From assembly GCA_947495055.1 (NCBI GenBank), contig CANLXO010000004.1, positions 1 through 64,000 of the forward strand: a stretch of 64,000 bases of DNA, written 5' to 3'. A program made the position numbers and the translations under genes. The stretch is from an uncultured Psychrobacter sp. GTDB lineage: Bacteria > Pseudomonadota > Gammaproteobacteria > Pseudomonadales > Moraxellaceae. Under the pieces are notes generated by a model that was not told the DNA's origin, did not search any database, and worked only from the letters and a program-made list of their open reading frames with translations. Below, piece by piece: positions 4,852-29,562 of the stretch. Position 1 is the stretch's first letter. Each line of letters opens with the position of its first letter.

Positions 4852-4878
4852 TTTTTGAAGGGATAAAGGATAAAGGCG

Positions 4879-4991
4879 TAGGGTGGGTTAGTTTTTCAAA
4901 CTCTCGCAGAGAGTGCAGATAAAACGTAACCCACCATTTCAAATACAAATTGTTGAATAAAGGTGGGTTACGCTATCGCTAACCCACCCTA
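4879..4991. repeat. 113-bp MITE-like inverted-repeat element
   Basis: The element is bounded by a perfect 12-bp terminal inverted repeat (TAGGGTGGGTTA and TAACCCACCCTA). Inside are two more copies of the core in opposite orientations: GTAACCCACC at 4926 and GGTGGGTTA at 4962, the latter forming a hairpin with the right end. Repeats with the GGTGGGTTACGC..TAACCCACC pattern are scattered in many bacterial genomes. There is no coding capacity and no clear target-site duplication. It sits in the 199-bp gap between the aldehyde dehydrogenase and M19-like genes, where its transcript would fold strongly and could uncouple their expression. Confidence 0.65.
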
Positions 4992-5050
4992 AGCAAACCT
5001 TAAGTTAAAAGCCAGTTCGTAAAATTAAGAAAGCACAATAAGGAATAGGT

Positions 5051-6040: not shown

Positions 6041-6223
6041 TACGAAAAGCGTGTAAGCATAGATATTTATTACCGTCAAAAGTCACTTCGCTATAAAGCA
6101 CCTGCTGTTCTATAGCGCTCATTGCCATTTAAAGATACAGATTTTAAGGGTGATTATCCTATTTTGTCTCTCATTTAATTTGTACCTTATTTAATTTTGA
6201 TGCAACAGGACTGGAGCCATATC

Positions 6224-7894
6224 ATGGCAGATTTAAAGGGATTTAACGATAAAGAGCAAGGACGCTCACATAATCTAAGCGCAGCTACGGGACATCTAAC
6301 GCGCACGGAGGTGTCAACAGATACTTTGGGTCTCAAAAACCCTGCCTTTTGGTATAGCGGCGGTTTTATCACTCTCTTTGTCTTGATGGCAATATTTGCA
6401 GAAGAGCAGCTGGGTATAATTGTAAATACTGCTTTTGCATGGTCAGCCAATATCTTTGGCCCCTTTTGGCAGATATTGCTATTGGCAACTTTTGTCATTG
6501 CCCTAGCCGTTGGGGCAGGTCGCACGGGACGAGTTATTCTAGGCAACCTGCCTAAGCCTGAGATGGATAATTTTAAGTGGATGGCGATCTTGTTTTGTAC
6601 GCTACTCGCTGGCGGCGGGGTGTTTTGGGCAGCGGCTGAACCTATCGCGCATTTTGTCTCAGCGCCGCCTTTGTATGGTGAGTCGCCAGATTTGCAGCAG
6701 CGTGCTTTTAATGCGTTATCTCAGTCTTTTATGCATTGGGGCTTTTTGGCGTGGTCGATCGTTGGTAGCTTAACCGCCATCGTTGTCATGCACTTGCATT
6801 ATGACAAAGGTCTACCGCTCAAGCCGCGTACGCTGTTATATCCTGTATTCGGCGAGCGCGTGCTCACCGGTCAGACCGGCGCTATTATTGACGCCTGTTG
6901 TATTATTGCAGTAGCAGCGGGCACGATTGGGCCTATTGGATTTTTGGGATTACAGACGAGCTATGCGCTAAATGAGCTGTTTGGTATTCCTGATACTTTT
7001 GTGACTCAGCTGATTATTATTGTCTTTGCGATTATTCTATATACGATTTCGGCTATTAGTGGTCTGGCTCGCGGTATGCAGCTATTGAGCCGTTTTAACG
7101 TCATATTAGCTGTGGCGCTAATGGTGTTTATCTTAATCTTTGGCCCAACTAATTTCATCACGAATGGCTATATCCAAGGCGTAGGCACGATGGTCCAAAA
7201 CTTCATTCCGATGGCGACGTTTCGCGGTGATGAGGACTGGCTTGGCTGGTGGACGGTATTCTTTTGGGGTTGGTTTTTGGGTTATGGCCCAATGATGGCG
7301 ATCTTTATCGCTCGTATCTCGCGCGGTCGTACCATTCGCCAGCTCATCACAACGGTTTGTATTATCGCACCGCTAGTGACTTGTTTTTGGTTCACTGTCG
7401 TTGGCGGTTCAGGTCTGGCTTTTGAGATTGCCAATCCAGGTAGTGTGAGCGCCGCTTTTGAAGGCTTTAACTTACCAGGCGCGCTCCTTGCAGTCACCCA
7501 GCAATTACCGTTTCCTCTGATTACCTCGATATTGTTCTTAATTTTGACGACTGTCTTTATTGTGACCACCGGGGATTCAATGACTTATACCATTAGTGTC
7601 GTCATCAGCGGTGAGCATGAGCCAAACGCTATGATACGTACCTTTTGGGGTGTGATGATGGGGATTACTGCTATCGTCCTAATCTCTTTGGGTGCAGGCG
7701 GCGTCAGCGCATTGCAGTCCTTTATCGTCATTACTGCGGTGCCTGTGTCCTTTATTTTGCTACCCTCACTTTGGAACGGGCCGCAAATTGCGCAGCAAAT
7801 GGCGCGTGAGCAAGATCTGTATCGCCCGAACCGAGTTGAGACTGATTATAAAATCGCTGAGGAGCAGCTTGCTAAGGATAGACAAGGACGCTAA
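6224..7894 (+). CDS. BCCT-family transporter
   Basis: A betaine/carnitine/choline-family secondary transporter of 556 residues with about 12 membrane segments. I chose the ATG at 6224 because TGGAG lies 7 bases upstream; earlier TTG/ATG codons at 6197-6200 lack one. The family region is clear (WWTVFFWGWFLGYGP followed by ARISRGRTIR). The usual aromatic box of choline/betaine carriers (FYWAWWISWSP) reads FFWGWFLGYGP here, so two of the tryptophans that cradle trimethylammonium groups are replaced; the substrate may not be a simple quaternary amine. It lies 183 bases after the M19-like gene and probably imports the substrate of this cluster. There is no long C-terminal osmosensing tail, which favours a nutrient-uptake role over osmoprotection. 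Confidence 0.88.
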   Translation: MADLKGFNDKEQGRSHNLSAATGHLTRTEVSTDTLGLKNPAFWYSGGFITLFVLMAIFAEEQLGIIVNTAFAWSANIFGPFWQILLLATFVIALAVGAGRTGRVILGNLPKPEMDNFKWMAILFCTLLAGGGVFWAAAEPIAHFVSAPPLYGESPDLQQRAFNALSQSFMHWGFLAWSIVGSLTAIVVMHLHYDKGLPLKPRTLLYPVFGERVLTGQTGAIIDACCIIAVAAGTIGPIGFLGLQTSYALNELFGIPDTFVTQLIIIVFAIILYTISAISGLARGMQLLSRFNVILAVALMVFILIFGPTNFITNGYIQGVGTMVQNFIPMATFRGDEDWLGWWTVFFWGWFLGYGPMMAIFIARISRGRTIRQLITTVCIIAPLVTCFWFTVVGGSGLAFEIANPGSVSAAFEGFNLPGALLAVTQQLPFPLITSILFLILTTVFIVTTGDSMTYTISVVISGEHEPNAMIRTFWGVMMGITAIVLISLGAGGVSALQSFIVITAVPVSFILLPSLWNGPQIAQQMAREQDLYRPNRVETDYKIAEEQLAKDRQGR

Positions 7895-8065: not shown

Positions 8066-9829
8066 ATGAATTTGATTGATACAAGTAATAATAGTCTTAA
8101 CGAAGCGGTATTGCCTTTACGTAGCCCTGATGTAGTGATGAACGCTCAAAGGCTTGGGGCGATGCATCAAACGCGCATCAGCTTTGTGCGCACGTTACTA
8201 CGCAAAATCGATAAGGAGCAATGGACGCTCTCAACCCATCTTTGGGATTTGGATGATAGCGGCTATGGGCAAGTGATTTATCGCTTGCAAACGCCCGAGC
8301 ATACTTATCACTTGGTGGTGTTTTGCCAAGAGCTTGCCGATGATGAGCGTAATGATCGGGTTATCGCACAAAAGTGGGATGTCACCTTTGGTCTAGTCTT
8401 TGGCGAGATCGGTCAAGAGCTACTCGATAACCTAAAAGCTAACGTGCCGCTACAAGAAGCCGGACGCAATTCCAACATGGTGATGGTGCTGGCGCGCGCT
8501 AACAAAAGCGTACGCGTCTTTGATCATATCGTCACCTCCTTAGCTAAAGGCGCGCAGCCTGATCTTGATATTTTGGCGCAAGTCGGTTATATCTTGCGTA
8601 CCACGGCGGTCTATGGCAATGGTAAGTTTGGTATCTATGACTTCAAACCACTCGATCACAGCGAGGATTTTAATCAGTCGTTTCGCGCGCAGATGTGCGC
8701 GGTGTATTTGCTGCGTGAATTTAGCCTAGATTGGGTGGATTTTTTGGCGAAGAAAAAAGGCGGCAGCAAAGCGGTCACCTTGCATCCAGAGATTAAGCGC
8801 TATCTAGGTATCGGTAATGCGACAGGTCTGGGTATGGCGCCGTATCTGATTAATCATCCCTGTGTCGTTGATCAATGGCTCACCACGCGTGAAGAGGCGC
8901 TACAATCTGTTTTAGTGTGCACGATTGAGCCTGATAAAGTGGCTTATTTTTCGACTCTGCTAAGCCGCGCCATTCAGCATTTCACTGAGATTGTCACTAT
9001 CGATGCGCAGCAAGTGACGTTGAACAATACTGTCGTCGCAGAGCTCACCCTATTACAGAACAATCTGCTGACAGCAATGAAGGGCTATAAGCGTTGGGGT
9101 GATTTTTTACAAGATTATGATCATCTCAGTTACGAGAGCCAAGAGGTAATAATCTCTTGCTTAATTGAGCTGTATCCTGAGCGCGTGGATAGCTTTCAAG
9201 AAAAGGTGAATGCCGATGAGACGCTATCGCTGCCTAAAGGCAAAACCGTTCAGGACTTAATCTTGGTGCTTGAGACTCACTATCAGTGGGCAATTAAGAT
9301 AGATTTCAGTGCACCTGATAACAGCTACTGGTTTTGGTATCGCTCAGTGGACAAAGAAGAGCCGCGTATGGGCGTACGCGGACAAGAGCCTGGCGATGAT
9401 CGAGAGCTGTTTTTGGATATTGCCCGCCAAACCAACAAGCTATATTTGGCGCTAAAACAGGTCGACCCCAAACAGCTTATCTCGCAGTTTGTCTTAGGTG
9501 CGCCCAAACATCGCGCTATCGCCAGACGCGTCTGGACGATGGGACACAAGCCTATGGGCGACATCCAGATCAACGTGCTCCAAAAAGACACTTTACCTAT
9601 TCATTTACTCCGCTGTAAGCTCTCTATGTTTGGCGCCACCAAGTTTGATCCCAGATCCGATCGCTGGGTACGCGTTACCTTGTTTCAGGGTGCGCCTTTA
9701 TTTGTTGATGTGCATAGTGATGAGTGGTTGTTTCCGCTATTACCTAAGCTTGATGAGTCTGAGACCGACCCTAAACACGACGCAGCGGTATTAACCATAC
9801 CAGCGTCTGATCAGGAGGCGTCGCTATGA
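8066..9829 (+). CDS. Conserved-looking protein of unknown function, 587 residues
   Basis: I do not recognise a family. The protein is soluble (no signal peptide, no membrane segments), rich in charged residues and has no obvious nucleotide-binding loop. Recognisable local features are a basic N-terminal segment (TRISFVRTLLRKIDKEQW), a central GYILRTTAVYGNGKFGIYDF block and a tryptophan-rich part around residues 425-440 (YWFWYRSVDKEEPRMG). Codon use and style match neighbouring genes, so it is a real gene. Its stop overlaps the start of the DUF3726-like gene by 4 bases (ATGA), so the two are translationally coupled and probably act together. It follows the BCCT transporter by 171 bases and is likely part of the same catabolic unit. 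Confidence 0.7.
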   Translation: MNLIDTSNNSLNEAVLPLRSPDVVMNAQRLGAMHQTRISFVRTLLRKIDKEQWTLSTHLWDLDDSGYGQVIYRLQTPEHTYHLVVFCQELADDERNDRVIAQKWDVTFGLVFGEIGQELLDNLKANVPLQEAGRNSNMVMVLARANKSVRVFDHIVTSLAKGAQPDLDILAQVGYILRTTAVYGNGKFGIYDFKPLDHSEDFNQSFRAQMCAVYLLREFSLDWVDFLAKKKGGSKAVTLHPEIKRYLGIGNATGLGMAPYLINHPCVVDQWLTTREEALQSVLVCTIEPDKVAYFSTLLSRAIQHFTEIVTIDAQQVTLNNTVVAELTLLQNNLLTAMKGYKRWGDFLQDYDHLSYESQEVIISCLIELYPERVDSFQEKVNADETLSLPKGKTVQDLILVLETHYQWAIKIDFSAPDNSYWFWYRSVDKEEPRMGVRGQEPGDDRELFLDIARQTNKLYLALKQVDPKQLISQFVLGAPKHRAIARRVWTMGHKPMGDIQINVLQKDTLPIHLLRCKLSMFGATKFDPRSDRWVRVTLFQGAPLFVDVHSDEWLFPLLPKLDESETDPKHDAAVLTIPASDQEASL

Positions 9830-17836: not shown

Positions 17837-18667
17837 CTAAACCCCATAAATATTACTCTCAATATTGTGCTTCATATGCAGCAGTCGCGGAGCAATGTCT
17901 TGCTCAATCTTGGTACGGCTAAGCACAAAGCTTGGCGCGCCGCAGTTAAAGGTGAGTAGGCCCTCAGTGGGATGCATGATGGCCGTGGCCACAGCATTGA
18001 CCTCCTTTTGCCAATCGCCAAATGAAAAGCAATAGCCAAAGTTCTCAAAGTCTTTAAACGCTTGCTCTAGGCTCGACTTGATTTTTGACCAGTCTTTATC
18101 GTGCTTACTACGAATCGCATTCATAATAAAATCTTGTTCGGCGGATGGCATACTCGCTAAGCAAGCACGTCCCATCGCACTAGAGTGCATAGGCAAGTAC
18201 GACCCGACATTACGGCGCATGGTTGTGGTGCTAGAGCCTTGCACGACGTTTAGATACACCATCATCAGCCGATCGCGGGTTGCCATGGCAACGGCGCTGT
18301 CGGCGTACTCTGCTAGCTCCGCCATGTAAGGGGTGACAAGATTATTAATAGAGATATTTGCCATCATGGTATAACCAAAGCCCAACACGCCAGCTGCCAG
18401 TTGGTACTTGCTACTGGTAGTAGATTGCTTTAGATAGCCGAGTTTGACTAAGGTATAGGTAAGACGTGTAATTGTGCCCTTAGGCAGTCCCGTTAATTGG
18501 CTGAGCTCTTGATTGCCAAGCATGGGCTGCTGCGGGGTAAAACATCGTAGCAGCTCAAGCCCGCGAGCGAGTGCGGTGACAAACTGCCGATCGCTTTGAT
18601 CTTTCATCTCACTTATAGGCTCTAGCAGCTCAAGAGGTGCGCTGCTAGTCGTATCAAATAACGTCAT
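17837..18667 (-). CDS. IclR-family transcriptional regulator
   Basis: A 276-residue IclR protein: a winged helix-turn-helix at about residues 25-95 (FVTALARGLELLRCF, then LTGLPKGTITRLTYTLVKLG) and a C-terminal effector domain (LPMHSSAMGRACLA; FGDWQKEVNAVA). IclR proteins of the PcaR/PcaU/PobR branch control aromatic and dicarboxylate catabolism. The gene begins 24 bases after the acyl-CoA dehydrogenase stop on the same strand, so the two form an operon diverging from the hydratase-dehydrogenase-thiolase genes. It likely controls the divergent beta-oxidation promoters. Because the bhc operon has no regulator gene of its own in the window, and BHAC regulators elsewhere (BhcR) are IclR-type, control of bhc is also possible but unproven. 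Confidence 0.88.
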   Translation of the reverse strand: MTLFDTTSSAPLELLEPISEMKDQSDRQFVTALARGLELLRCFTPQQPMLGNQELSQLTGLPKGTITRLTYTLVKLGYLKQSTTSSKYQLAAGVLGFGYTMMANISINNLVTPYMAELAEYADSAVAMATRDRLMMVYLNVVQGSSTTTMRRNVGSYLPMHSSAMGRACLASMPSAEQDFIMNAIRSKHDKDWSKIKSSLEQAFKDFENFGYCFSFGDWQKEVNAVATAIMHPTEGLLTFNCGAPSFVLSRTKIEQDIAPRLLHMKHNIESNIYGV

Positions 18668-18691
18668 AGGGCATAGTATTCTTGGTTGAGG

Positions 18692-19846
18692 TTATTCGCT
18701 CACTTCTTTAATCATATTGCGAGCGATAATAATTTGCTGAATTTGCGTGGTGCCTTCGTACAGACGATACAGACGCACATCACGATAAAAACGCTCAATA
18801 CCGTAATCTGCAATGTAACCGGCGCCGCCATGAATCTGCACTGCGCGATCGGCTACGCGTCCACACATCTCAGTGGCAAACATCTTAGCACAGGAGGACT
18901 CAGTCACCACATCTTTACCTTCATCACGCAGGCGCGAGGCATCGAGTACCATAGATTTGGCCGCATAAATCTCAGCCTTTGAATCAGCAAGCATCGCTTG
19001 TATTAGCTGAAAACTGGCAATTGGTTGACCAAACTGTTTGCGATCGACAGCGTAGCGCAGCGCATCATCTAACATGCGAGAGGCCGCCGCAGTACTGGCC
19101 GCTGCAATATGCAAACGACCTTTATCCAGCACTTTCATCGCCGTCTTAAAGCCGACACCCTCGACGCCGCCGATCAAAGCACTTGCTGGCACCACGCAGT
19201 TATCAAAGATCACATCACAAGTATGCGCGCCTTTTTGTCCCATTTTTTTATCGATTTTACCTAAAGTGATGCCTGGGGTATCGCTTTCAACGATAAAGGC
19301 AGAGATGCCGCCCGCGCGTTTGTTCTCAGGATCGGTACGCGCCATAACGGTGAAGACACCGGCTTGTGGTGCGTTAGTAATATAGCGCTTAGTGCCGTTG
19401 ATGACATAAGTGTCGCCGTCTTTGATAGCGGTAGTGCGCAAGGAGGCAGCATCTGAGCCTGCTTCGGGTTCAGTCAGACAAAACGAGCCGATAATCTCGC
19501 CACTGGCAAGTTTGGGCAAATATTTTTGCTTTTGCTCTTCGGTACCGTCGATGACCAGACCTGAGGAGCCAATGCCGTTGTTGGTACCGATAAGCGAGCG
19601 AAACGCCGGAGAGGTGCGTCCCATCTCAAAAGCGACGATGACCTCTTCTTCCATCGTGAGTCCAAGACCGCCGTATTCTTCTGGTATGGTCAATCCAAAT
19701 AGACCCAGCTCGCGCATTTGACTGATGATCTCTTCTGGCAGGCGATCGTTTTCTGCGACCCAGTCTTCATTAGGTATGAGCTGATCGTTGACAAATTGAC
19801 GAACGGTATTGACGATATGGTCGAGGACTTCTTGATCTCTAATCAT
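18692..19846 (-). CDS. Acyl-CoA dehydrogenase
   Basis: A 384-residue FAD-dependent acyl-CoA dehydrogenase, which introduces the trans-2 double bond in beta-oxidation. I start it at the ATG at 19846, with AAGGAAG just upstream; the open frame extends 40 residues further into non-coding-looking sequence. Visible are EEYGGLGLT (about residue 55), the FAD/substrate motif CLTEPEAGSD (about 125), and near the C-terminus the region with the catalytic glutamate (LYEGTTQIQQ). The sequence fits short-, branched- or dicarboxyl-chain members; chain specificity cannot be read. It is co-directional with iclR and divergent from the other beta-oxidation genes. Confidence 0.88.
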   Translation of the reverse strand: MIRDQEVLDHIVNTVRQFVNDQLIPNEDWVAENDRLPEEIISQMRELGLFGLTIPEEYGGLGLTMEEEVIVAFEMGRTSPAFRSLIGTNNGIGSSGLVIDGTEEQKQKYLPKLASGEIIGSFCLTEPEAGSDAASLRTTAIKDGDTYVINGTKRYITNAPQAGVFTVMARTDPENKRAGGISAFIVESDTPGITLGKIDKKMGQKGAHTCDVIFDNCVVPASALIGGVEGVGFKTAMKVLDKGRLHIAAASTAAASRMLDDALRYAVDRKQFGQPIASFQLIQAMLADSKAEIYAAKSMVLDASRLRDEGKDVVTESSCAKMFATEMCGRVADRAVQIHGGAGYIADYGIERFYRDVRLYRLYEGTTQIQQIIIARNMIKEVSE

Positions 19847-19922
19847 GGGACTTCCTTGTCTGGTGTGACTGAATACGAAAATAGTTTGGATAAGTTTGAC
19901 GCTTATAACTAATAATATAAAA

Positions 19923-19975
19923 AACTGATAATACAAAAAACTGATAGTGCAAATAACCGATAGCACAAATAACGG
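19923..19975. promoter_or_regulatory. Three 16-bp direct repeats, candidate IclR operator
   Basis: In the 270-bp divergent region between the acyl-CoA dehydrogenase and enoyl-CoA hydratase genes, a unit of the form AACTGATAnnnCAAAn occurs three times head to tail (starts at 19923, 19939 and 19955), with a fourth partial copy (AACGG). PcaU and PobR, IclR-type regulators, are known to bind sites made of three repeated 10-bp sequences, so this is a natural candidate operator. Confidence 0.5.
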
Positions 19976-20040
19976 TTTTACATAAAGAGCTTGTATGAGC
20001 CAAATAGCATAATCTATACTAAAGCAGATTACAACAATTT

Positions 20041-20064
20041 CGGTTTTAAGAACCGCAGTGCGGT
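20041..20064. promoter_or_regulatory. Overlapping inverted repeats upstream of enoyl-CoA hydratase
   Basis: Two short palindromes overlap: CGGTT-TTAAG-AACCG and ACCGC-AGT-GCGGT. They lie 53-76 bases before the hydratase start, close to where the promoter should be. This could be a second regulator site or a small hairpin in the leader. Confidence 0.35.
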
Positions 20065-20116
20065 ATTTTAGTAGTATTGTATTAATATACGCAAGACAAC
20101 AAATAAGGATAGCATC

Positions 20117-20893
20117 ATGGAAGAGTCCATCATTACCTGTGAGACATTAGATAGTGGCGTAAGTGTAATAACCCTCAATCGTCCTAAAGTTCGCAACGCC
20201 CTAAACGCTGAGTTACGCGCGCAGATGGCAGAGATATTTATTCGATTAAATAATGACTCAAAGACCAAAGCTATCGTACTCACTGGCGGTGATAAAGTAT
20301 TCGCCGCGGGCGCGGATATCAATGACTTTTTGACTGCAAAGACAGTCGATGTTTATCTGCGTCATAGCGAACAGTACTGGGACGCGATTACCGATTGCCG
20401 TAAACCTATTATCGCCGCAGTTAATGGCTATGCGCTTGGCGGCGGCTGTGAGCTTGCGATGCATGCCGATATTATTGTCGCGGGCAAGTCGGCTAAGTTT
20501 GGACAGCCAGAGATTAAGATAGGTCTGATGCCAGGGGCAGGAGGTACGCAGCGATTGTTTCGCGTGCTTGGCAAGCATAAAGCTATGAAGCTCATCTTAA
20601 CGGGCGATATGATAAGCGCTGATCAGGCGGATCAAATGGGACTAGTGTCTGAAGTGGTGGACGATGAGGCGACTATTAAGCGCGCTGTAGAAATCGCTGA
20701 GCAGTTGGCAGGCTACTCGCCCATTGCTTTAACCCAAATCAAAGAAGTCGCCAACCTTGGGGTGGACATGCCATTGCAAGCGGCTCTAGCTTTAGAGCGT
20801 AAAGCCTTTCAAATTTTATTTGATACCGAAGATCAAAAAGAAGGCGCGAAAGCCTTTTTGGAAAAGCGCGATGCCAACTACAAAGGACAGTAG
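20117..20893 (+). CDS. Enoyl-CoA hydratase (PaaF-like)
   Basis: A 258-residue crotonase-fold enzyme that hydrates 2-enoyl-CoA to 3-hydroxyacyl-CoA. The oxyanion-hole region is seen in FAAGADINDF (about residue 61), and both catalytic glutamates are present: GYALGGGCELAM (about 103-114) and FGQPEIKIGLMPGAGGTQRL (about 127-146). The second block is close to PaaF of phenylacetate degradation as I recall it, which also acts on dicarboxyl-type enoyl-CoAs. AAGGA lies 7 bases before the start. First gene of a three-gene beta-oxidation operon. Confidence 0.88.
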   Translation: MEESIITCETLDSGVSVITLNRPKVRNALNAELRAQMAEIFIRLNNDSKTKAIVLTGGDKVFAAGADINDFLTAKTVDVYLRHSEQYWDAITDCRKPIIAAVNGYALGGGCELAMHADIIVAGKSAKFGQPEIKIGLMPGAGGTQRLFRVLGKHKAMKLILTGDMISADQADQMGLVSEVVDDEATIKRAVEIAEQLAGYSPIALTQIKEVANLGVDMPLQAALALERKAFQILFDTEDQKEGAKAFLEKRDANYKGQ

Positions 20894-20938
20894 TCGTTGA
20901 AGGGATTAAGACACCACTAAATCATATAAAGGAATACT

Positions 20939-22540
20939 ATGACTATCATATCATCAGATATGCAATCATTAGCCATTATTGGCACGGGCATCATGGGTAT
21001 GGGTATTGCCCAAATCGCAGCGCAAGCGGGCATTAACGTATTGTTATTTGATGCCAAAGCAGGAGCCGCTGAGCAAGGACGTCAAGCGCTTCAAGCGACG
21101 CTTGAAAAACTTGCGGCTAAGGGGAAGTTTACTGATGAGCAATTGCAAGCGACTCTATCAAACTTAACCGTGATTGAGGATATCGCACAAATTGCTGAAG
21201 TAGATATTGTTGTTGAGGCCATTATTGAAAATTTAGAGATAAAACAGCAGCTGTTTAAGCAATTAGACAGCCTTGTTCCTACCGACACCATTTTAGCAAC
21301 CAATACCTCATCGCTATCAGTGACCGCCATTGCCTCGGCTTGCCAGCATCCAGAGCGGGTAGCAGGGTTTCACTTCTTTAATCCTGTGCCGCTAATGAAA
21401 ATCGTTGAGGTGATTCCGGGCATCTCTACCGACCATTGTGTTGTAGAGACACTGACCAGTTTAGCCAAACGCATGGGACATTTAGGTGTCGTGGCGAAGG
21501 ATACGCCAGGGTTTATCGTCAACCATGGTGGTAGAGCTTTTGGTACAGAGGCGCTAAAAATACTAGGCGAGGACGTTGCCAGTCTTGAGCAGATTGATCG
21601 TATTTTGCGCGATGGCGCAGGCTTTCGTATGGGACCGTTTGAGCTGATGGATCTGACAGGCGTCGATGTCTCGCATCCCGTCATGGAGTCGATTTATAAT
21701 CAATATTACTTTGAGCCTCGCTATCGCCCGCATCCATTAACCCGGCAAATGCTAGAGGGTAACAAGCTTGGTCGTAAAGTGGGCGAAGGTTTTTATCACT
21801 ACACAGATGGTAAAAAGCAAGATGGTGAAAAGCAAGATGGTAAAAAGATGACAGCAGATACCGCTCAAGAGCCTTTTTCTAACGCTGTATCTGACAAAGC
21901 CGTTAATTCAGTTTGGATTGGCGCGGATTTAGCGGCAGATAAACAACAGCTGGTTGATTACCTAAACGCTAATGACATCACTATCGACGATAACGATACC
22001 CCAAACCCTAGCAGTTTGGTATTACTAGCAATTTATGGCGAAGATACCACCAATGCCGCTATGCGCTATCAAATTGATCCTAAGCAAGCGGTTGCTATCG
22101 ATATGCTAACGGACTTATCCAAGCATCGCACCCTGATGCCAAGTATCGTTACAGAGGACAAATTTGTCACGCAGGCTGATACCTTATTCGGTAAAAGCTT
22201 AAATAATAATTTGAATGAAGGCTCAGATGGTGCTTCGCTAATTAAAGAAAGCACGGGCTTTGTGGCGCAGCGAGTTATGGCGATGGTGATTAATTTGGGC
22301 TGTGATATGGCGCAGCAAGGCATAGCGACGCCTGAGGATATCGACAATGCCGTCAAGCTTGGCTTGGGATATCCGTTCGGTCCTATCTCGTGGGGTGACG
22401 CGCTTGGTGCTGAGCGTATTTTACTTATCTTGGAGCGTATTTATGCTCTAACAGGTGATTCGCGTTACCGTCCTAGTCCGTGGTTACAGCGCCGTGCTAA
22501 GCTTAGTATTTCGCTGTTTACGCAGCAGAGTAATTTTTAA
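20939..22540 (+). CDS. 3-Hydroxyacyl-CoA dehydrogenase (PaaH-like)
   Basis: A 533-residue NAD-dependent dehydrogenase of the two-C-domain type (PaaH-like, usually about 500 residues). The Rossmann motif GTGIMGMGIAQ is at about residue 16; then come the dimer/active-site region ASACQHPERVAGFHFFNPVP (catalytic histidine, about 145), TPGFIVNHGGR (about 188), and the second C-domain (STGFVAQRVMAM, then DNAVKLGLGYPFGPISWGD). Between the two C-domains (about residues 290-325) is a hydrophilic linker expanded by a 15-bp tandem repeat (DGKKQDGEKQDGKKM). It lies 45 bases after the hydratase gene with AAGGA before the ATG. It oxidises 3-hydroxyacyl-CoA, probably a 3-hydroxyadipyl-type substrate. Confidence 0.88.
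   Translation: MTIISSDMQSLAIIGTGIMGMGIAQIAAQAGINVLLFDAKAGAAEQGRQALQATLEKLAAKGKFTDEQLQATLSNLTVIEDIAQIAEVDIVVEAIIENLEIKQQLFKQLDSLVPTDTILATNTSSLSVTAIASACQHPERVAGFHFFNPVPLMKIVEVIPGISTDHCVVETLTSLAKRMGHLGVVAKDTPGFIVNHGGRAFGTEALKILGEDVASLEQIDRILRDGAGFRMGPFELMDLTGVDVSHPVMESIYNQYYFEPRYRPHPLTRQMLEGNKLGRKVGEGFYHYTDGKKQDGEKQDGKKMTADTAQEPFSNAVSDKAVNSVWIGADLAADKQQLVDYLNANDITIDDNDTPNPSSLVLLAIYGEDTTNAAMRYQIDPKQAVAIDMLTDLSKHRTLMPSIVTEDKFVTQADTLFGKSLNNNLNEGSDGASLIKESTGFVAQRVMAMVINLGCDMAQQGIATPEDIDNAVKLGLGYPFGPISWGDALGAERILLILERIYALTGDSRYRPSPWLQRRAKLSISLFTQQSNF
21806..21850 (+). repeat. 15-bp coding tandem repeat, three copies
   Basis: GATGGTAAAAAGCAA occurs three times in tandem with single-base differences, encoding DGKKQ, DGEKQ and DGKKM inside the linker of the hydroxyacyl-CoA dehydrogenase. 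A multiple of three keeps the frame, so copy number could vary between strains without breaking the enzyme. Confidence 0.85.
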
Positions 22541-22629
22541 TGGCAAGTCTTTAATGCTAAAAGCTAAAGCAGTTTGATGAACTCTATATCTCAATCGAAG
22601 CAACTCTTAAAACACAACAAGGAATAGTG

Positions 22630-23832
22630 ATGTTAGACGCCTATATTTATGATGGCTTAAGAAGCCCTTTTGGTCGCCATGGCGGCGCATTAGCCACCGT
22701 ACGTCCTGATGATATGATTGCGGCAGTGATCAAAGCTTTGGTTGAAAAGCACCAATTGCCCAGCGATATCTTTGATGAAGTGCTCATCGGCAATACCAAC
22801 CAAGCGGGTGAAGACTCACGCAACATCGCACGCAATGCCGCATTACTAGCGGGACTAGATGTCACCACGCCCGGTCAAACCGTCAATCGTCTATGCGCGT
22901 CAGGGCTATCTACTGTCATTGATGCTGCTCGTAGTATCACTTGTAACGAGGGGGATATATTTTTAGCAGGTGGCGTTGAGTCCATGACCCGCGCGCCCTT
23001 TGTCTTTGCCAAGACCGAGCAGCCTTTTAGTCGTGACTTTAAAGTATTTGATACCACTATTGGTAGCCGATTTCCTAATCCTGTTTTAACTAAAGAATTT
23101 GGCAGCGACAGCATGCCGCAAACGGGTGATAATGTCGCGCGCAAATACAATATCAGCCGTGAAGAAGCAGATAAATTCGCAGCCGCCTCGCAAGCGAAAT
23201 ATCAAACCGCCAAACAAGCTAGTTTCTTTGATGAGGAAATAACGCCAATCACAGTATCGCAAGGTAAAAAATTACCAGACAAAGCGATAACGGAAGATGA
23301 GCATCCTCGCGCTAGCTCTACGGTAGAAGCACTGCAAAAGCTAAAGCCGTTGAATGAGAATGGCGTGGTCACAGCAGGTAACGCGTCCGGTATTAACGAT
23401 GGCGCAGCGGCGCTGATTATTGGCTCAAAACAAGCAGAAGAAAAACTAGGCTTTAAACCTATTGCTAAGATTTTATCCTCTGGCACGATGGGCGTTGAGC
23501 CAAATATTATGGGCGTGGGTCCTGTTGAGGCGATAAAGCTAGCACTCAAACGCGCTGACTTGACTCTTGATGATATGTCCATCATTGAGATTAATGAAGC
23601 CTTTGCCTCGCAAGTACTAGGCTGCCTAAAGGGTTTGGATATCGACTTTGATGACAAGCGCGTTAATCCAAATGGCGGGGCGATTGCAGTCGGGCATCCG
23701 CTTGGTGCGTCAGGTGCTCGCATAGCCTTAAGTACGGCGCGCGAGCTACAGCGCACGGGCGGACAATACGCGGTAGTTAGCTTATGCATTGGTATCGGGC
23801 AAGGGCTGGCTATGGTGATAGAGCGGGTGTGA
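22630..23832 (+). CDS. Thiolase, 3-oxoadipyl-CoA thiolase-like (PcaF/PaaJ type)
   Basis: A 400-residue thiolase that cleaves 3-oxoacyl-CoA with CoA to release acetyl-CoA. The ATG at 22630 has AAGGA 6 bases upstream. The acyl-accepting cysteine is in NRLCASGLS (about residue 90), the histidine in GHPLGASGAR (about 355) and the second cysteine in SLCIGIGQG (about 385). The N-terminus RSPFGRHGGALATVRPDD and the CIGIGQG ending are typical of the PcaF/PaaJ branch acting on 3-oxoadipyl-CoA, giving acetyl-CoA and succinyl-CoA, although fatty-acid thiolases are related. Last gene of the operon; no CoA-ligase or CoA-transferase gene is nearby to activate the substrate. Confidence 0.85.
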   Translation: MLDAYIYDGLRSPFGRHGGALATVRPDDMIAAVIKALVEKHQLPSDIFDEVLIGNTNQAGEDSRNIARNAALLAGLDVTTPGQTVNRLCASGLSTVIDAARSITCNEGDIFLAGGVESMTRAPFVFAKTEQPFSRDFKVFDTTIGSRFPNPVLTKEFGSDSMPQTGDNVARKYNISREEADKFAAASQAKYQTAKQASFFDEEITPITVSQGKKLPDKAITEDEHPRASSTVEALQKLKPLNENGVVTAGNASGINDGAAALIIGSKQAEEKLGFKPIAKILSSGTMGVEPNIMGVGPVEAIKLALKRADLTLDDMSIIEINEAFASQVLGCLKGLDIDFDDKRVNPNGGAIAVGHPLGASGARIALSTARELQRTGGQYAVVSLCIGIGQGLAMVIERV

Positions 23833-24101: not shown

Positions 24102-25118
24102 TTATAACGAGATTTGTTGGGCTTCGCCTTTTTCAAGTGCAAGCTTAGCAGCAGCAGAAGCAACTGCTAAATCTTGCAGGCCAACACCAGTACCATCAAA
24201 CAAGGTAATCTCATCATCATTGCTACGACCTGCATGTTCACTGTTGATGACGTCACCAAGCGTAGTGATATCACTTTCTTTGATAGCACCAGACTTAATC
24301 GCATGCTGAGCCTCACCAAGGCTAATCGATTGTGCGATCTCATCAGTAAATACGGTAGCGGCGGCGATCAAGGCAGGATCGACTTCTTGTTTTCCGACCG
24401 TATCAGTACCCATACAGGCGATATGTGTACCAGATTTGATCCACTCTTTCATAAGCAGCGGCTCAAACGCTGAGGTAATCGTGATGATCACATCAGCTTG
24501 CTTGCAAAGCTCTTCGCGCTCCACTGATTTAAACGGTACGCCTATCTCTTCAGCGACGGCTTGTAGGTTTTTAAGACGATCTTTATTCTTATTCCAAGCC
24601 ACTACCTTTTCAAAATTGCGTTGCTCAAGAGCAGCACGCAGCTGAAAAGTAGACTGATGACCGGCGCCGATCATACCTAATACTTTGCTATCTGTGCGCG
24701 CTAAATGAGCAATCGATACGGCAGAGGCGGCCGCTGTACGTACCGCCGTTAGATAGTTACCGCCAACGAGGGCGCGCAACTTACCATTATCTGGATTGAA
24801 TAAGAAAATCGTTGACTGATGATTGGTCAAGCCTTTAGCGGCATTGCCTGGCCAATAACCACCTGATTTTAAACCTAGTGATTTACCAGCACGGTCAAAG
24901 CCAGATTTAAAGCCATATAATGCATCAGCATAGCCAATTGCTTCACGAATCACAGGGAAGTTATACGCATCCCCTCGTGACATTGCCGCGAATACGTTTT
25001 CGACTGCCTCAAAAGCAGACGGACGATCGATAACAGACTTACAAGCCTCTTCTGAGACGATTACCAAACCTTCGTTATTATTAGCTGCTTTATGGTCAGT
25101 ATTATTTGCTTCACTCAT
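24102..25118 (-). CDS. bhcD: Iminosuccinate reductase of the beta-hydroxyaspartate cycle
   Basis: A 338-residue protein of the ornithine cyclodeaminase/mu-crystallin family, which in this cycle reduces iminosuccinate to L-aspartate with NAD(P)H. The Rossmann motif is MIGAGHQS (about residue 152). The substrate-side segment GLKSGGYWPGN (about 82) with NHQSTIFLF matches what I recall of BhcD rather than true cyclodeaminases. The near C-terminal LFDGTGVGLQDLAVA is the family's closing motif. AAGGA precedes the ATG at 25118. It is the fourth and last gene of the bhc set, separated from bhcC by 149 bases containing a strong hairpin. Identity rests mainly on its company with A, B and C; an ordinary cyclodeaminase is the alternative. 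Confidence 0.85.
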   Translation of the reverse strand: MSEANNTDHKAANNNEGLVIVSEEACKSVIDRPSAFEAVENVFAAMSRGDAYNFPVIREAIGYADALYGFKSGFDRAGKSLGLKSGGYWPGNAAKGLTNHQSTIFLFNPDNGKLRALVGGNYLTAVRTAAASAVSIAHLARTDSKVLGMIGAGHQSTFQLRAALEQRNFEKVVAWNKNKDRLKNLQAVAEEIGVPFKSVEREELCKQADVIITITSAFEPLLMKEWIKSGTHIACMGTDTVGKQEVDPALIAAATVFTDEIAQSISLGEAQHAIKSGAIKESDITTLGDVINSEHAGRSNDDEITLFDGTGVGLQDLAVASAAAKLALEKGEAQQISL

Positions 25119-25164
25119 TACAAATTCCTTTTATGATGTATATACAAGATATAGTTAATAATAA

Positions 25165-25195
25165 GGGCTGCTGTAGGCCAAAGCTACAACAGCCC
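25165..25195 (-). terminator. Hairpin between bhcC and bhcD
   Basis: A 12-bp stem (GGGCTGTTGTAG / CTACAGCAGCCC in the minus-strand sense, one G-T pair) followed by TTATTATT. Lying inside the operon, it could partly terminate transcription or protect the bhcABC mRNA, setting bhcD lower than the rest. The opposite strand has a TTTT run, so it can also stop antisense transcription. Confidence 0.6.
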
Positions 25196-25267
25196 CTTTT
25201 AGATCAAACTAATCCAAATATGTTAGCCGCTTTGACGGTTTAAACTTACCCGTCTTTGTGTTAAAAA

Positions 25268-26419
25268 TTAGTAGGCGCGGCCACGAGCAGATACCGGCCA
25301 TACGCTCTCAACCTTGCCGCTGCGCACGCCAACATACCAGTCATGGATGTTGCACGTTGGATCACAATGACCTGGTACTAGTTTTAGTTTTTCATTGATT
25401 TTAAGCACGCCATTTGGATCGCTAACTACGCCATGCTCATCCGAGCACTTCACATACTCCACATCATCACGACCGTAGATGAAGGGTAGGCCACTATCTA
25501 CGGATTGCGCTTTTAGACCTGCATCAACGATAGCTTTGTCTGGCTTGGTATGACTCATTACTGAGGTTAATAAGAATAGCGCGTTTTCCCACTCGCCAGC
25601 ATCGATACGGTTGCCGTCTTCGTCTAGGATACGGCCGTAGTCTGCATCCATAAAGGCGTACGAGCCACACTGCAACTCGTTATAGACCCCTGAGTTGCTC
25701 TCAAAGTAGTAACTCCCCGTACCGCCGCCTGAGACAAACTCTGGTTTTAGACCAATCTTTTCAAGCGCTTCAACCGCCTCTTGGACTTGATCGATAGCGA
25801 CTTGGGTTTTGGCTTTACGGTCGCTATAGCTATCCATATGCTGCATCGCACCTTGATAGGCTTGAATACCCGTGAACTTCAAGTTTTCAGCTGCATCGAT
25901 GGCTTTGGCAATCTCAACAACCGCTTCTGTGGTGGTGACACCGCAGCGGCCAGCCCCACAATCGATTTCAATATAGCAGTTCAGCTCAGTACCGTTTTTG
26001 ACAGCTGCTTCTGATAGTTCAGCCACGTTATTGACGTCATCAAGACAAACGGTGATTTTTGCGCCAAGTTTTGGCAATTTTGCTAGGCGATCAATCTTTG
26101 CAGGGTCACGAACTTGGTTGGATACCAAGATATCTTTGATGCCGCCACGGGCGAACACTTCTGCTTCTGATACTTTTTGGCTACAGATACCTACTGCGCC
26201 GCCAAGCTCTTCTTGCAGCTTTTGTACATCGACGGATTTGTGCATTTTGCCGTGGCTACGGTGACGCATATTATGGTCTTTGGCGTAGTCGCCCATTTTT
26301 TTGATGTTGCGCTCAAGGGCGTCTAAATCAAGGATTAAGCAAGGGGTTTGGATATCTGCTTCATCCATACCGACTTTTGCAGGGACGTTAAAACCAACTT
26401 CTAATTCTTCAGTAATCAT
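25268..26419 (-). CDS. bhcC: Beta-hydroxyaspartate aldolase
   Basis: A 383-residue fold-type III PLP enzyme (alanine racemase/D-threonine aldolase-like), which in this cycle joins glycine and glyoxylate to (2R,3S)-beta-hydroxyaspartate. I start at the ATG at 26419 with GGAG 7 bases upstream; an ATG 30 bases earlier lacks a site. The PLP-lysine region is RSHGKMHKSVDVQKLQ (about residue 50), close to the RxHxKxHK motif of the family. The C-terminal metal-binding part shows PGHCDPTCNIHDWY (His and Cys, about 355), typical of the D-threonine aldolase/DSD1 group. It lies third in the A-B-C-D order, 156 bases after bhcB. Confidence 0.87.
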   Translation of the reverse strand: MITEELEVGFNVPAKVGMDEADIQTPCLILDLDALERNIKKMGDYAKDHNMRHRSHGKMHKSVDVQKLQEELGGAVGICSQKVSEAEVFARGGIKDILVSNQVRDPAKIDRLAKLPKLGAKITVCLDDVNNVAELSEAAVKNGTELNCYIEIDCGAGRCGVTTTEAVVEIAKAIDAAENLKFTGIQAYQGAMQHMDSYSDRKAKTQVAIDQVQEAVEALEKIGLKPEFVSGGGTGSYYFESNSGVYNELQCGSYAFMDADYGRILDEDGNRIDAGEWENALFLLTSVMSHTKPDKAIVDAGLKAQSVDSGLPFIYGRDDVEYVKCSDEHGVVSDPNGVLKINEKLKLVPGHCDPTCNIHDWYVGVRSGKVESVWPVSARGRAY

Positions 26420-26605
26420 CTTCAAGCTCCATTTGTTTGATTGCTTCATTAACGCTACTGCATTAATGATAATTAAGAATATAAAGGCGTTTAAACTTGG
26501 GTATTATTTACACTTAGTTAACGCCAGATTTATGATTTTACTCAGCTCTTTTCACTATTAGCCCTTTACACTAAAAGCTATCTTTTGACGCTTGATGATA
26601 AGTCA

Positions 26606-27586
26606 TTAATTCCAAGGCAACTTATCCAGATCGACGTTACCACCAGTGATGATGACGCCTACTTTTTTGCTGGCAAAAACATCTTTATTTTTTAGGATAA
26701 CGGCAAGCGGGACCGCGCAGCTCGGCTCAATGATAATTTTCATATGTGTCCAAGTCAGCTTCATGGCTTCAACGATTTCTTCTTCAGTTGCGGTCAAAAT
26801 ATCGGTCACGTAGTTACTGACAAAGTGCCAAGTCAAATCTTTAAGCGGCACTTTTAGGCCGTCAGCGATAGTATCTGGCGCGTCATCAGCGATGATGTGA
26901 CCGGCGTGTAGCGAGCGTGCGGCATCATCAGCATTGACTGGCTCTGCGGCATAGATTTTGACATCAGGGGCTAGGTTGGAGAGCGTCAAGCAAGTGCCAG
27001 ATATCATACCGCCGCCGACAATTGGAGCGACAATCATGTCAGGCTTTACGCCGCGCTCGTCCATCTGTTCTAAAAACTCACGCGAGCACGTGGCTTGGCC
27101 AGCGATAACGCGAGGGTCATTGTAAGGATGGACAAAATCGCCGCCAGTCTCCGCCTGCACTTGAGCAAATACCTGTTCACGTGAAGTGGTTGAGGGCTCG
27201 CATTCAGTAATGATGCCGCCATAGCCGCGTACAGCCGCTTTTTTAGCTTCGGGCGCACTATAGGGCATTACCACATTACAAGGAACGCCGCGCTGACCGG
27301 CGGCATAAGATAAAGACAAGGCATGGTTGCCTGAGCTATGGGTACAAACGCCATTTTTGGCCTCTTCATCGCTCAAGCCAAATACGGCGTTTGAGGCACC
27401 GCGCACCTTAAAGGCACCAGCTTTTTGGAAGTTTTCACATTTAAAATACATCTCACAGCCTGCCATCTCATCCAAAAAACGTGAGGTCAGAACTGGAGTA
27501 CGGTGAATGTATGGTTTAATGCGCTCATGCGCTTCTAACATATCATCAAGGGTTGGAATCACTAGTCCATCTTCATTTTTGATCAT
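26606..27586 (-). CDS. bhcB: Beta-hydroxyaspartate dehydratase
   Basis: A 326-residue fold-type II PLP enzyme (serine/threonine dehydratase and serine racemase family). In the cycle it dehydrates beta-hydroxyaspartate to iminosuccinate. The PLP lysine is in KAGAFKVRGA (about residue 60), the phosphate-cup glycines in IVGGGMISG (about 190), and HSSGNHALSL (about 85) is the asparagine loop. Alone it could be called threonine dehydratase or serine racemase; order and company with bhcA, bhcC and bhcD decide the name. No regulatory ACT domain. It lies 80 bases after bhcA; AAGGAATATTTCT precedes the start. Confidence 0.87.
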   Translation of the reverse strand: MIKNEDGLVIPTLDDMLEAHERIKPYIHRTPVLTSRFLDEMAGCEMYFKCENFQKAGAFKVRGASNAVFGLSDEEAKNGVCTHSSGNHALSLSYAAGQRGVPCNVVMPYSAPEAKKAAVRGYGGIITECEPSTTSREQVFAQVQAETGGDFVHPYNDPRVIAGQATCSREFLEQMDERGVKPDMIVAPIVGGGMISGTCLTLSNLAPDVKIYAAEPVNADDAARSLHAGHIIADDAPDTIADGLKVPLKDLTWHFVSNYVTDILTATEEEIVEAMKLTWTHMKIIIEPSCAVPLAVILKNKDVFASKKVGVIITGGNVDLDKLPWN

Positions 27587-27666
27587 AGAAATATTCCTTT
27601 ATTTTTCTGTCGAGTCACTGCTATCTAGGTGTTGCGCGCCTTAGTTTATGTGTTGCGTCGCTTAAT

Positions 27667-28830
27667 TTAAGTGTTCCGATAGTACTCTTGCGCTGCTGTA
27701 ACGCCTTGGCCCAGTTTAATAGGATAATCTAGGTCAACCATCGCCATCTCAATGGTGGCCAGTCCTGCTAGCACCATAACCTCAGTCAATGAGCCTAAAT
27801 GTCCTATTCTAAAGGCGCGACCTGCCATCTCACCTAAGCCCACCCCAAAAGAGATACCGTATTTGTTAAAGGCGTGATCCGTTAATTCATTACTATTGAA
27901 GCCTTCAGGCACGTATATCGCACTCACGGTTTGGGAGTATAGGTCAGGTGATTTTGCCGCAAGCTTAAAGCCCCAAGCACTCACCGCTTGGCGTACGCCT
28001 TCGGCTAGGCGATGATGACGGGCGTAGACATTCTCAAGTCCTTCCTCAAACAGCATATCGAGACTGGCGCGCATCCCATAAATTAGATTAAGTGGCGGAG
28101 TGTAAGGAAAGCCGCCACTTGCATTGGCTTTTAGCATGTCACGAAAGTCAAAATAAGTACGCGGTAGTTTCGCGTGCTCCATGGCGGCAAGCGCCTTTGG
28201 ACTGACGGCTAATATCGCCATGCCTGTTGCGAGCATAAAACCTTTTTGCGAGCCGGCTATAGCGATATCTACGCCCCACTCATCCATCTTAAAAGGTACA
28301 CAAGCGATTGAGCTGACCCCATCAACGAGTAACAGGGCAGGGTGATCGGCGCTATCGATGGCTTTGCGTACCGCACCAATATCGCTCAACACGCCAGTGG
28401 CAGTCTCGTTATGCGTCACCATCAAAGCTTTGATCTCATGATTGGTGTCCGCTGCCAATATGGTCTGAAACTCATCAGCAGGCGCGCCGTCGCCCCATTC
28501 GCATTCGATCACTTGTACATCGAGGCCGTGACGCTGACACATATCAATCCAGCGATGCGAGAACATACCGTAGCGTGCAATTAGCACTTTATCGCCGGGC
28601 GATAGAGTATTGCTGATAGCCGCTTCCCAGCCACCTGTGCCGCTTGAGGTGAATAAAAGCACTTCGCCCTCACTGGTACCAAATACTTTTTTGGCATCTT
28701 GAAGTACTGGTAAAAAGGTGTTTGAAAAGTCAGGGGCACGGTGATCTTGAGTTGGCACGTTCATCGCATGGCGGAGTCTTTCTGGAATATTGGTAGGGCC
28801 AGGGATAAAAATAGGGTTTTGTAGAGACAT
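27667..28830 (-). CDS. bhcA: Aspartate-glyoxylate aminotransferase
   Basis: A 387-residue class V aminotransferase (fold-type I). In the cycle it moves the amino group of aspartate to glyoxylate, giving oxaloacetate and the glycine used by BhcC. The start at 28830 is set by AAGGA 8 bases upstream. Visible are FIPGPTNIPERLRHAMNVP (about residues 7-25), the small-molecule pocket TSSGTGGWEAA (about 68), and the PLP lysine in AGSQKGFMLATG (about 196). Serine-glyoxylate aminotransferases are close relatives and the main alternative name. First gene of the operon. Only about 70 bases separate it from the divergent malic-enzyme remnant; this short region must hold the promoter and contains a small ACAA-CTA-TTGT palindrome (28865-28875) as a possible operator. 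Confidence 0.85.
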   Translation of the reverse strand: MSLQNPIFIPGPTNIPERLRHAMNVPTQDHRAPDFSNTFLPVLQDAKKVFGTSEGEVLLFTSSGTGGWEAAISNTLSPGDKVLIARYGMFSHRWIDMCQRHGLDVQVIECEWGDGAPADEFQTILAADTNHEIKALMVTHNETATGVLSDIGAVRKAIDSADHPALLLVDGVSSIACVPFKMDEWGVDIAIAGSQKGFMLATGMAILAVSPKALAAMEHAKLPRTYFDFRDMLKANASGGFPYTPPLNLIYGMRASLDMLFEEGLENVYARHHRLAEGVRQAVSAWGFKLAAKSPDLYSQTVSAIYVPEGFNSNELTDHAFNKYGISFGVGLGEMAGRAFRIGHLGSLTEVMVLAGLATIEMAMVDLDYPIKLGQGVTAAQEYYRNT

Positions 28831-28899
28831 GATTGACGTCCTTGTATATGTGTATAAAGGTGACACAATAGTTGTATAGGCAGGGTTTCATGCGAATGT

Positions 28900-29403
28900 G
28901 AGGTGATCGAAGCCTTATGCACTAATACGGATAAGCCCATAGTCCTACCGCTATCAAACCCAACGTCTCGTGTTGAAGCCACACCGCAAGAGATTACTAA
29001 CTGGAGCTTTGGCCGCGCTATTATTGCAACGGGTAGTCCATTTCCTCACACTACCTTTAACGGTCAGAGTTTTGAGGTGTCTCAATGTAACAACAGCTAC
29101 ATCTTCCCAGGTATCGGCCTAGGAGTGCTTATATCACGAGCAACGGGAATTAGCGACAATATGCTTATGGCAGCAAGCCAAGCCCTTGCTGATATCTCAG
29201 CAGCGTATGAAAAAGCCCCCGGTGCTATATTGCCTCCTATCAAAGTCATCAGAGAGATCAGTGAAAAAATAGCTTATGCTGTGGCCCTGCAAGCGATTGA
29301 AGACAAACTTGCTCTACCTGTAACGATAGAGAACCTACAACGCCGATTACAAGCCAATTTTTGGCTGCCCAGATACCGTAACTATCGTCGTACTTCTTTT
29401 TAG
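28900..29403 (+). pseudogene. maeA: 3' remnant of NAD-dependent malic enzyme gene
   Basis: The reading frame encodes only the last 166 or so residues of a MaeA/SfcA-type malic enzyme: PLSNPTSRVEATPQEI, IATGSPFPH, the QCNNSYIFPGIGLGV block and the closing RNYRRTSF all match the C-terminal third of a roughly 565-residue enzyme. The N-terminal substrate domain and the front of the NAD domain are absent. There is no ribosome binding site for the GTG at 28903, and homology begins abruptly about 70 bases from bhcA. So a deletion or insertion joined the bhc operon to the middle of this gene. A complete malic enzyme (maeB) lies at 31790-34123 and may cover the lost function. Confidence 0.85.
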
Positions 29404-29511: not shown

Positions 29512-29547
29512 AAAACCCCTCTAAATCTGCGAGATCTAGAGGGGTTT
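29512..29547 (-). terminator. Terminator of the tRNA gene
   Basis: A 12-bp perfect stem (AAAACCCCTCTA / TAGAGGGGTTTT) lies 16 bases beyond the tRNA 3' end, with T-runs on both sides. It fits as the tRNA transcript terminator on the minus strand. Confidence 0.85.
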
Positions 29548-29562
29548 TATACAATCTAAATT

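Follow-up and report, generated by a model that had tools for sequence, protein, structure and literature searches.

The window analysed here is a stretch of 64,000 nucleotides from an uncultured Psychrobacter sp. (contig CANLXO010000004.1 of assembly GCA_947495055.1). At positions 24102-28830 it contains four complete, adjacent minus-strand open reading frames (ORFs) in the order bhcA-B-C-D, the genes of the beta-hydroxyaspartate cycle (table 1). An earlier note on this DNA had proposed such an operon, and both ORF reading and a family scan bear it out. Divergent to bhcA stands what is left of maeA, a malic enzyme gene, and between the two the assembly has a deletion of about 2 kb relative to its kin. 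The source genome, G000, is in 47 contigs and is scored 99.98% complete. As the earlier note supposed, it is a Psychrobacter, in the same genus as Psychrobacter sp. FME6, GP33 and isolate 4-164.

Table 1. Features of the bhc locus and of the junction upstream of bhcA (window positions; aa, amino acids).
Feature	Positions	Strand	Basis or remark
bhcD, iminosuccinate reductase, 338 aa	24102..25118	-	NF045643 574.3 bits, cut-off 500; 6rqa match
bhcC, 3-hydroxy-D-aspartate aldolase, 383 aa from ATG at 26419	25268..26419	-	NF045642 750.6 bits, cut-off 690; 6qkb match
bhcB, beta-hydroxyaspartate dehydratase, 326 aa	26606..27586	-	NF045641 572.4 bits, cut-off 550
bhcA, L-aspartate-glyoxylate aminotransferase, 387 aa from ATG at 28830	27667..28830	-	NF045640 709.1 bits, cut-off 650
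Remaining bhcA 5' flank with ribosome-binding site and TATACA box	28831..28897	-	blastn to relatives, alignment; homology stops at 28897
Deletion junction, ~1.9-2.05 kb lost relative to relatives	28898..28899		Lost: maeA codons 1-393 and conserved bhcA upstream region
maeA remnant, encoding residues 394-560 of a 560-aa malic enzyme; own start lacking	28900..29403	+	Family scan, homology

Identity of the four enzymes

Which enzymes do the four ORFs encode? Each of BhcA, BhcB, BhcC and BhcD passes its NCBIfam equivalog cut-off, and the runner-up families all stay under their own: pyridoxamine-pyruvate transaminase for BhcA (177 bits), threo-3-hydroxy-L-aspartate ammonia-lyase for BhcB (333 bits), alanine racemase for BhcC (35 bits) and alanine dehydrogenase for BhcD (205 bits). 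By sequence search, the best PDB relative of BhcC is 6qkb, a D-3-hydroxyaspartate aldolase (E 7.8e-212; second, D-threonine aldolase at 1.2e-95), and that of BhcD is 6rqa, an iminosuccinate reductase (E 1.8e-121; second, alanine dehydrogenase at 2e-46). The orthology to Bhc enzymes that the earlier note proposed is thus upheld for all four by the family models and for BhcC and BhcD by their nearest solved structures as well. None of the proteins falls in with serine-glyoxylate aminotransferase, threonine dehydratase, D-threonine aldolase or ornithine cyclodeaminase.

The family scan used longer ORFs with upstream starts; the starts of bhcA and bhcC were then read from the sequence, the ATG at 28830 being preceded by AAGGACG and that at 26419 by GGAG. 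The intergenic gaps, at 80, 186 and 149 bp, are wide for an operon. By tblastn, the order bhcABCD is common to 70 of the best 80 named loci, mostly Rhodobacterales, of a BhcC scan. Of 103 loci checked for complete BhcABCD, 82 were kept (L021-L023 had been excluded beforehand as copies of G098, G067 and G065). The Bhc proteins of the window carry five short motifs, which we take to be the surroundings of the expected lysine, metal and nicotinamide adenine dinucleotide sites, and three of the five are present in all 82 complete operons. We conclude that, judged by sequence, the four genes are a genuine bhcABCD operon encoding the beta-hydroxyaspartate cycle, and that the enzymes are very likely competent.

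How would the cycle run? In the scheme set out in PMC8307300, BhcA would use aspartate as amino donor for glyoxylate and so produce glycine and oxaloacetate. BhcC would then join glycine to a second glyoxylate to form (2R,3S)-beta-hydroxyaspartate, from which BhcB would remove water to leave iminosuccinate. Reduction of the latter by BhcD would yield aspartate, which goes back into the cycle. The net result, according to the same source, is the conversion of two glyoxylate to one oxaloacetate with zero CO2 lost (PMC8307300).

Elsewhere in the window, at 48353-49528, a second protein with an alanine-racemase N-terminal domain (Pfam) is encoded; it receives no NCBIfam name at E 1e-30. The next ORF, at 49516-50859, looks like an oxidase linked to flavin adenine dinucleotide, by eye only.

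The region upstream of bhcA

What precedes bhcA in related genomes? BhcC occurs in 20 of 105 genomes of the Psychrobacter genus, G000 included, and in the relatives conservation is high over about 330 bp above bhcA. This conservation is kept where bhc is not beside maeA (G027, G028, G073, G077, G101 and G102) and so belongs to bhcA. The element contains a block of 84-89 bp (70 in G005) and an inverted repeat, GTATGAGTC-AGGAA-GACTCTTGC, with A or G at its centre and one G/A variant. Measured upstream from the start codon, the distance to the centre of the repeat is 83-86 bp in 15 of the 16 sequences; in G065 it is 72 bp. By a regular expression, 11 of 17 elements have an extended -10 type site, TTGTTA-N17-TATATT, about 300 bp above bhcA. 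A promoter scan lists this site in L124 and L115, where the totals of promoter sites are not clearly above those in shuffles (3 against 4.4, and 5 against 3.9).

How closely does the element accompany bhc? A model of the block, R1 (Infernal with stricter filters, 42 candidates scored per genome), finds it once each in 18 of the 105 genomes: 18 of the 20 that are bhc-positive and none of the 85 that are bhc-negative. Since 17 of the 18 sequences that R1 later found had gone into building it, this result shows that the element is confined to bhc, and not that it is structured. The exceptions are G000 and G011. G011 is without bhcA beside bhcB, which leaves G000 as the one genome where bhcA is complete and the element absent. 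A local search in 17 sources, namely L118 of G011, L163 of G081, 14 loci from outside Psychrobacter and the window itself, gave a single match, in L163. The 19-base palindrome is found exactly in 18 of the 105 genomes, all bhc-positive, and in none of 65 bhcA upstream regions of 500 bp each from outside Psychrobacter. As a marker of a regulon the palindrome was rejected: 15 more genomes match with one or two mismatches, and in the eight of these inspected the match lies inside the same coding gene. A reversed control of the pattern also matches some genomes.

Does the element act as RNA or as DNA? A structured RNA or riboswitch was considered and dropped, changes on both sides being found at 1 of 35 pairs of the consensus fold and at 0 of 23 pairs of a named hairpin. 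Fold stability is not significant in the six sequences folded (z-scores -0.70 to -1.86), Rfam returns one match, at E 1.1 and far under the gathering score, and in G005 (L125) the outer helix lacks its 5' half. Small ORFs in the element, looked at by eye only, were also discarded, their frames being broken in some relatives. We take the element as promoter and operator DNA, possibly with a transcribed leader. More tentatively, the stretch of ~300 bp might be a bhc-specific switch, either a leader RNA or a multi-site operator that senses glyoxylate or glycine, which replaced BhcR after transfer; G000 would then be a natural deletion mutant that keeps the four enzymes.

Homology of the window to its relatives above bhcA ends at 28897, 67 bp before the start codon, and homology to maeA resumes at 28900, in codon 394; the homologies to the two sides of the junction end 2 bp apart. 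The stretch that intervenes in relatives measures ~2,050 bp in G046, 1,995 in G083, 2,010 in G019 and 1,870 in G005. A maeA match is found in 84 of the 105 genomes, three with split copies and one stopping at residue 462. G000, whose sole match covers residues 394-560, is the only genome to be without the first part yet keep the rest. At the search thresholds used, the first two thirds of maeA and the upstream element are on no contig of G000, which argues against a simple misassembly.

How is maeA placed in the relatives? Full-length maeA, coding for a malic enzyme of 560 aa, is the divergent neighbour of a complete bhcA in 9 of the 19 bhc-positive relatives. G067 keeps the arrangement with bhcA in fragments only. 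G081 has a maeA with one internal stop codon next to the palindrome, but on a contig separate from bhc. With these two imperfect cases the count is 11 of the 19. In the remaining eight maeA lies elsewhere, downstream in the case of G065. G054, which has no bhc, shows four genes followed directly by maeA, whereas in G055 bhcDCBA lies between those genes and maeA, an empty and a filled site. The right flank of the window (maeA remnant, pteridine reductase, cca and maeB) matches G016 and, plus one ORF, G019. Damage of another kind is seen at L113 (G067, Psychrobacter sp. FME6): at 8168-8330 the element is present, bhcA is reduced to two short fragments before an intact bhcBCD, and glcDE is missing.

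Is there a regulator of the BhcR type? The earlier note had remarked that no divergent regulator gene adjoins the operon, and indeed the divergent neighbour is the C-terminal malic enzyme fragment. No BhcR in G000 exceeds the family cut-off (best 100.1 bits against 350, and not adjoining bhcA), nor is bhcR the divergent neighbour in the bhc-positive Psychrobacter relatives looked at, where maeA often takes that place. The four IclR genes of G000 were set aside as candidates; the identity of their products to the IclR proteins of Marinobacterium and to the references is ~19-29%. A sigma-70-type scan lists no site toward bhcA between a terminator-like hairpin at 29512-29548 and bhcA, though the scan is weak, with 15 sites in the region against 11.0 (standard deviation 2.9) in shuffles.

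A gene for an IclR-type regulator (PcaR/PcaU family, below cut-off) also lies at 17837-23832 of the window, with genes for an acyl-CoA dehydrogenase, an enoyl-CoA hydratase (by eye), a 3-hydroxyacyl-CoA dehydrogenase and a 3-oxoadipyl-CoA thiolase; these form a dicarboxylate- or adipate-type beta-oxidation set.

Glyoxylate supply and the state of the operon

If the cycle consumes glyoxylate, which genes could provide it? Scores for the GlcD family of glycolate oxidase are bimodal: 20 genomes score 528-543 bits, the next 369, and none reaches the curated cut-off of 567.9. These 20 genomes are also those in which GlcE passes its cut-off. Of the 105 genomes, 15 have bhc and glcDE, five bhc only (G000, G019, G067, G081, which is 83% complete, and G102), five glcDE only (G004, G022, G054, G091 and G093) and 80 neither. 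The two gene sets thus tend to co-occur (Fisher p 3e-10). In G000 the best match to the GlcD family has E 1.6e-87 and lies outside the 528-543-bit group (104 of 105 genomes match at E 1e-50), and there is no GlcE match at E 1e-40. That operon damage accompanies loss of glcDE is not claimed (2 of 5 against 1 of 15, Fisher p 0.14). G000 has an isocitrate lyase (NF005074, 981 bits) and a malate synthase G (1147 bits); its glyoxylate carboligase match is under cut-off (333 against 711 bits), as are those of 13 of 14 control genomes. At 3376-7894 of the window, genes for an aldehyde dehydrogenase, an M19 dipeptidase and a BCCT transporter are consecutive. They are possibly a set for uptake and breakdown of betaine or related amines, which could supply glycine.

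What, then, is the state of the operon? The reading that we hold with good confidence is that of a bhc operon by identity whose upstream element is deleted together with most of maeA, in a genome from which glcDE is absent. Because of these losses, the genes are probably no longer induced in G000 by glycolate-derived glyoxylate, and the operon appears cut off from its usual switch and its usual substrate supply. If they are expressed, the most likely source of glyoxylate would be isocitrate lyase; low constitutive expression fed by this enzyme and a silent relict may both be compatible with the sequence. The earlier note's complete cycle operon therefore stands as regards the genes and their order, while a working cycle in this strain is made less certain by the same losses. 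Gene identity and order, the deletion relative to kin in this assembly, the absences and the presence of isocitrate lyase and malate synthase G genes are observed directly; that the enzymes are active, that the upstream element regulates bhc, that induction is lost and where the substrate comes from are inferred from the sequence.

Several observations weigh against this reading. No solved orthologue of BhcA or BhcB is among the PDB matches listed in the sequence search, so that their identity rests on the family models; the top matches are labelled serine-glyoxylate aminotransferase (BhcA) and probable serine racemase (BhcB). The bhcB motif is missing in 10 of the 82 operons and the bhcD motif in 27. 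The ratio of nonsynonymous to synonymous substitution rates (dN/dS) is 0.024-0.056 for the bhc genes of the window against three relatives, at a dS of 0.86-1.57, so the comparison would not reveal selection that ended recently. The Fisher test of bhc with glcDE ignores the relatedness of the genomes, and the deletion rests on a single assembly of 47 contigs.

Could the four genes be unrelated catabolic enzymes that are merely adjacent, namely a serine-glyoxylate aminotransferase, a threonine dehydratase, a D-threonine aldolase and an ornithine cyclodeaminase? Each protein does lie within those broad superfamilies, but no rival family reaches its own cut-off where all four Bhc models exceed theirs, and the same four genes recur in the same order at the 70 loci mentioned above; we regard that alternative as extremely improbable. 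It is somewhat less far-fetched, though still improbable, that the junction is an assembly error and that the strain has an intact maeA and upstream element. The draft state of the genome would allow it, yet the missing parts are on no contig of a nearly complete genome and the two homologies end within 2 bp of one another.

A fully working operon deserves more weight, although we think it the lesser possibility. A new or remaining promoter near bhcA would drive the genes, with isocitrate lyase, or the breakdown of glycine or betaine, supplying glyoxylate in place of glycolate. All four ORFs are open and intact and dN/dS is low, a TATACA box and a ribosome site lie within the 67 bp left, the genes for isocitrate lyase and malate synthase G are present, and the M19 dipeptidase and BCCT transporter genes stand at 5051-7894. 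On the other hand, the sigma-70-type scan, weak as it is, lists no site directed toward bhcA, and the element, present in 16 of 16 relatives with a complete bhcA, is gone in G000. We prefer the reading in which induction is probably lost.

Origin of the operon and comparison with known systems

How widespread is the operon? In a family sample BhcC is present in 18 of 249 genomes, all in one of 16 genera; in a class sample of 369 genomes there are eight BhcC matches at E 1e-100, five of them over cut-off, G000 included. The earlier note had called a gammaproteobacterial bhc operon notable. Uncommon it is in the class sample, but it is not new, since PMC11323563 already names the cycle as the dominant glycolate route in Alpha- and Gammaproteobacteria. 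No paper pairing 'hydroxyaspartate' with 'Psychrobacter' was found in the open literature searched. What is new here is the upstream element as a testable regulatory lead; the identity of the operon and its occurrence in the class were already known.

A concatenated BhcABCD tree of the 82 complete operons (Bhc only, without a non-Bhc outgroup; quick method; midpoint-rooted; support by the Shimodaira-Hasegawa-like approximate likelihood ratio test, SH-aLRT, only) places the 17 Psychrobacter rows on a single side of a branch with SH-aLRT 100, the window beside G046. They belong to a larger part of the tree, 31 rows in all, which also takes in four rows from other Gammaproteobacteria, nine from Ruegeria, Nioella and strain KLH11, and Limibaculum. 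On this tree the Psychrobacter bhc genes make up one lineage, with kin among the operons of other Gammaproteobacteria and of certain Ruegeria-type bacteria, and the pattern is consistent with a single entry into Psychrobacter and later losses. The GC content of the operon (47.0%) is close to that of the window (45.3%), so composition gives no transfer signal.

Two further loci are worth recording. L046, an 11-kb contig in a Spirulina subsalsa record, encodes BhcB and BhcC 70-82% identical to those of the window and is likely contamination by an associated proteobacterium. At 1784-13087 of L118 (G011), bhcBCD, with neither bhcA nor the upstream element, is flanked by two inverted copies of 923 nt that are 99% complementary; these carry pieces of an IS630-type transposase, and the arrangement resembles a composite transposon of ~11 kb.

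Why should the upstream region matter? According to PMC11323563 and PMC12214560, the cycle is important for the turnover of glycolate in the sea and has found application in plants and in Pseudomonas, and its regulation has been studied through BhcR in Paracoccus denitrificans (PMC11323563). Psychrobacter is a clade with a conserved element and no adjoining bhcR, in which intact genomes and a natural deletion allow comparison. The linkage with malic enzyme suggests how oxaloacetate from the cycle might be drawn off to pyruvate.

How does the locus compare with known systems? The bhcABCD operons of Paracoccus denitrificans and other Rhodobacterales have the same four enzyme families in the same order as the window. 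In P. denitrificans, as described in PMC11323563, bhcR encodes an IclR-type activator and lies divergent to bhcA, whereas the window has the malic enzyme remnant in that place and its genome no BhcR over cut-off. At 66 of the 71 bhcA-bearing loci among the best 80, the two of Marinobacterium among them, a divergent ORF lies within 1.8 kb and is similar to one or other of two IclR-type references; the references were themselves taken from bhc loci, so this is resemblance only and not a score against the BhcR family model. Marinobacterium (L028 and L078) is gammaproteobacterial, shares the gene order and falls in the same 31-row part of the tree. It differs in its divergent IclR-type gene, ~30% identical to the alphaproteobacterial references and perhaps a different regulator, and the Psychrobacter element is not found there. 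Closest are the other Psychrobacter (G046, G083, G019 and others), with Bhc proteins 85-95% identical among 16 complete operons and on the same side of the branch as the window. They differ from G000 as follows: 18 of these 19 relatives have the element, 11 of 19 a divergent maeA, counting the imperfect cases G067 and G081, and 15 of 19 glcDE.

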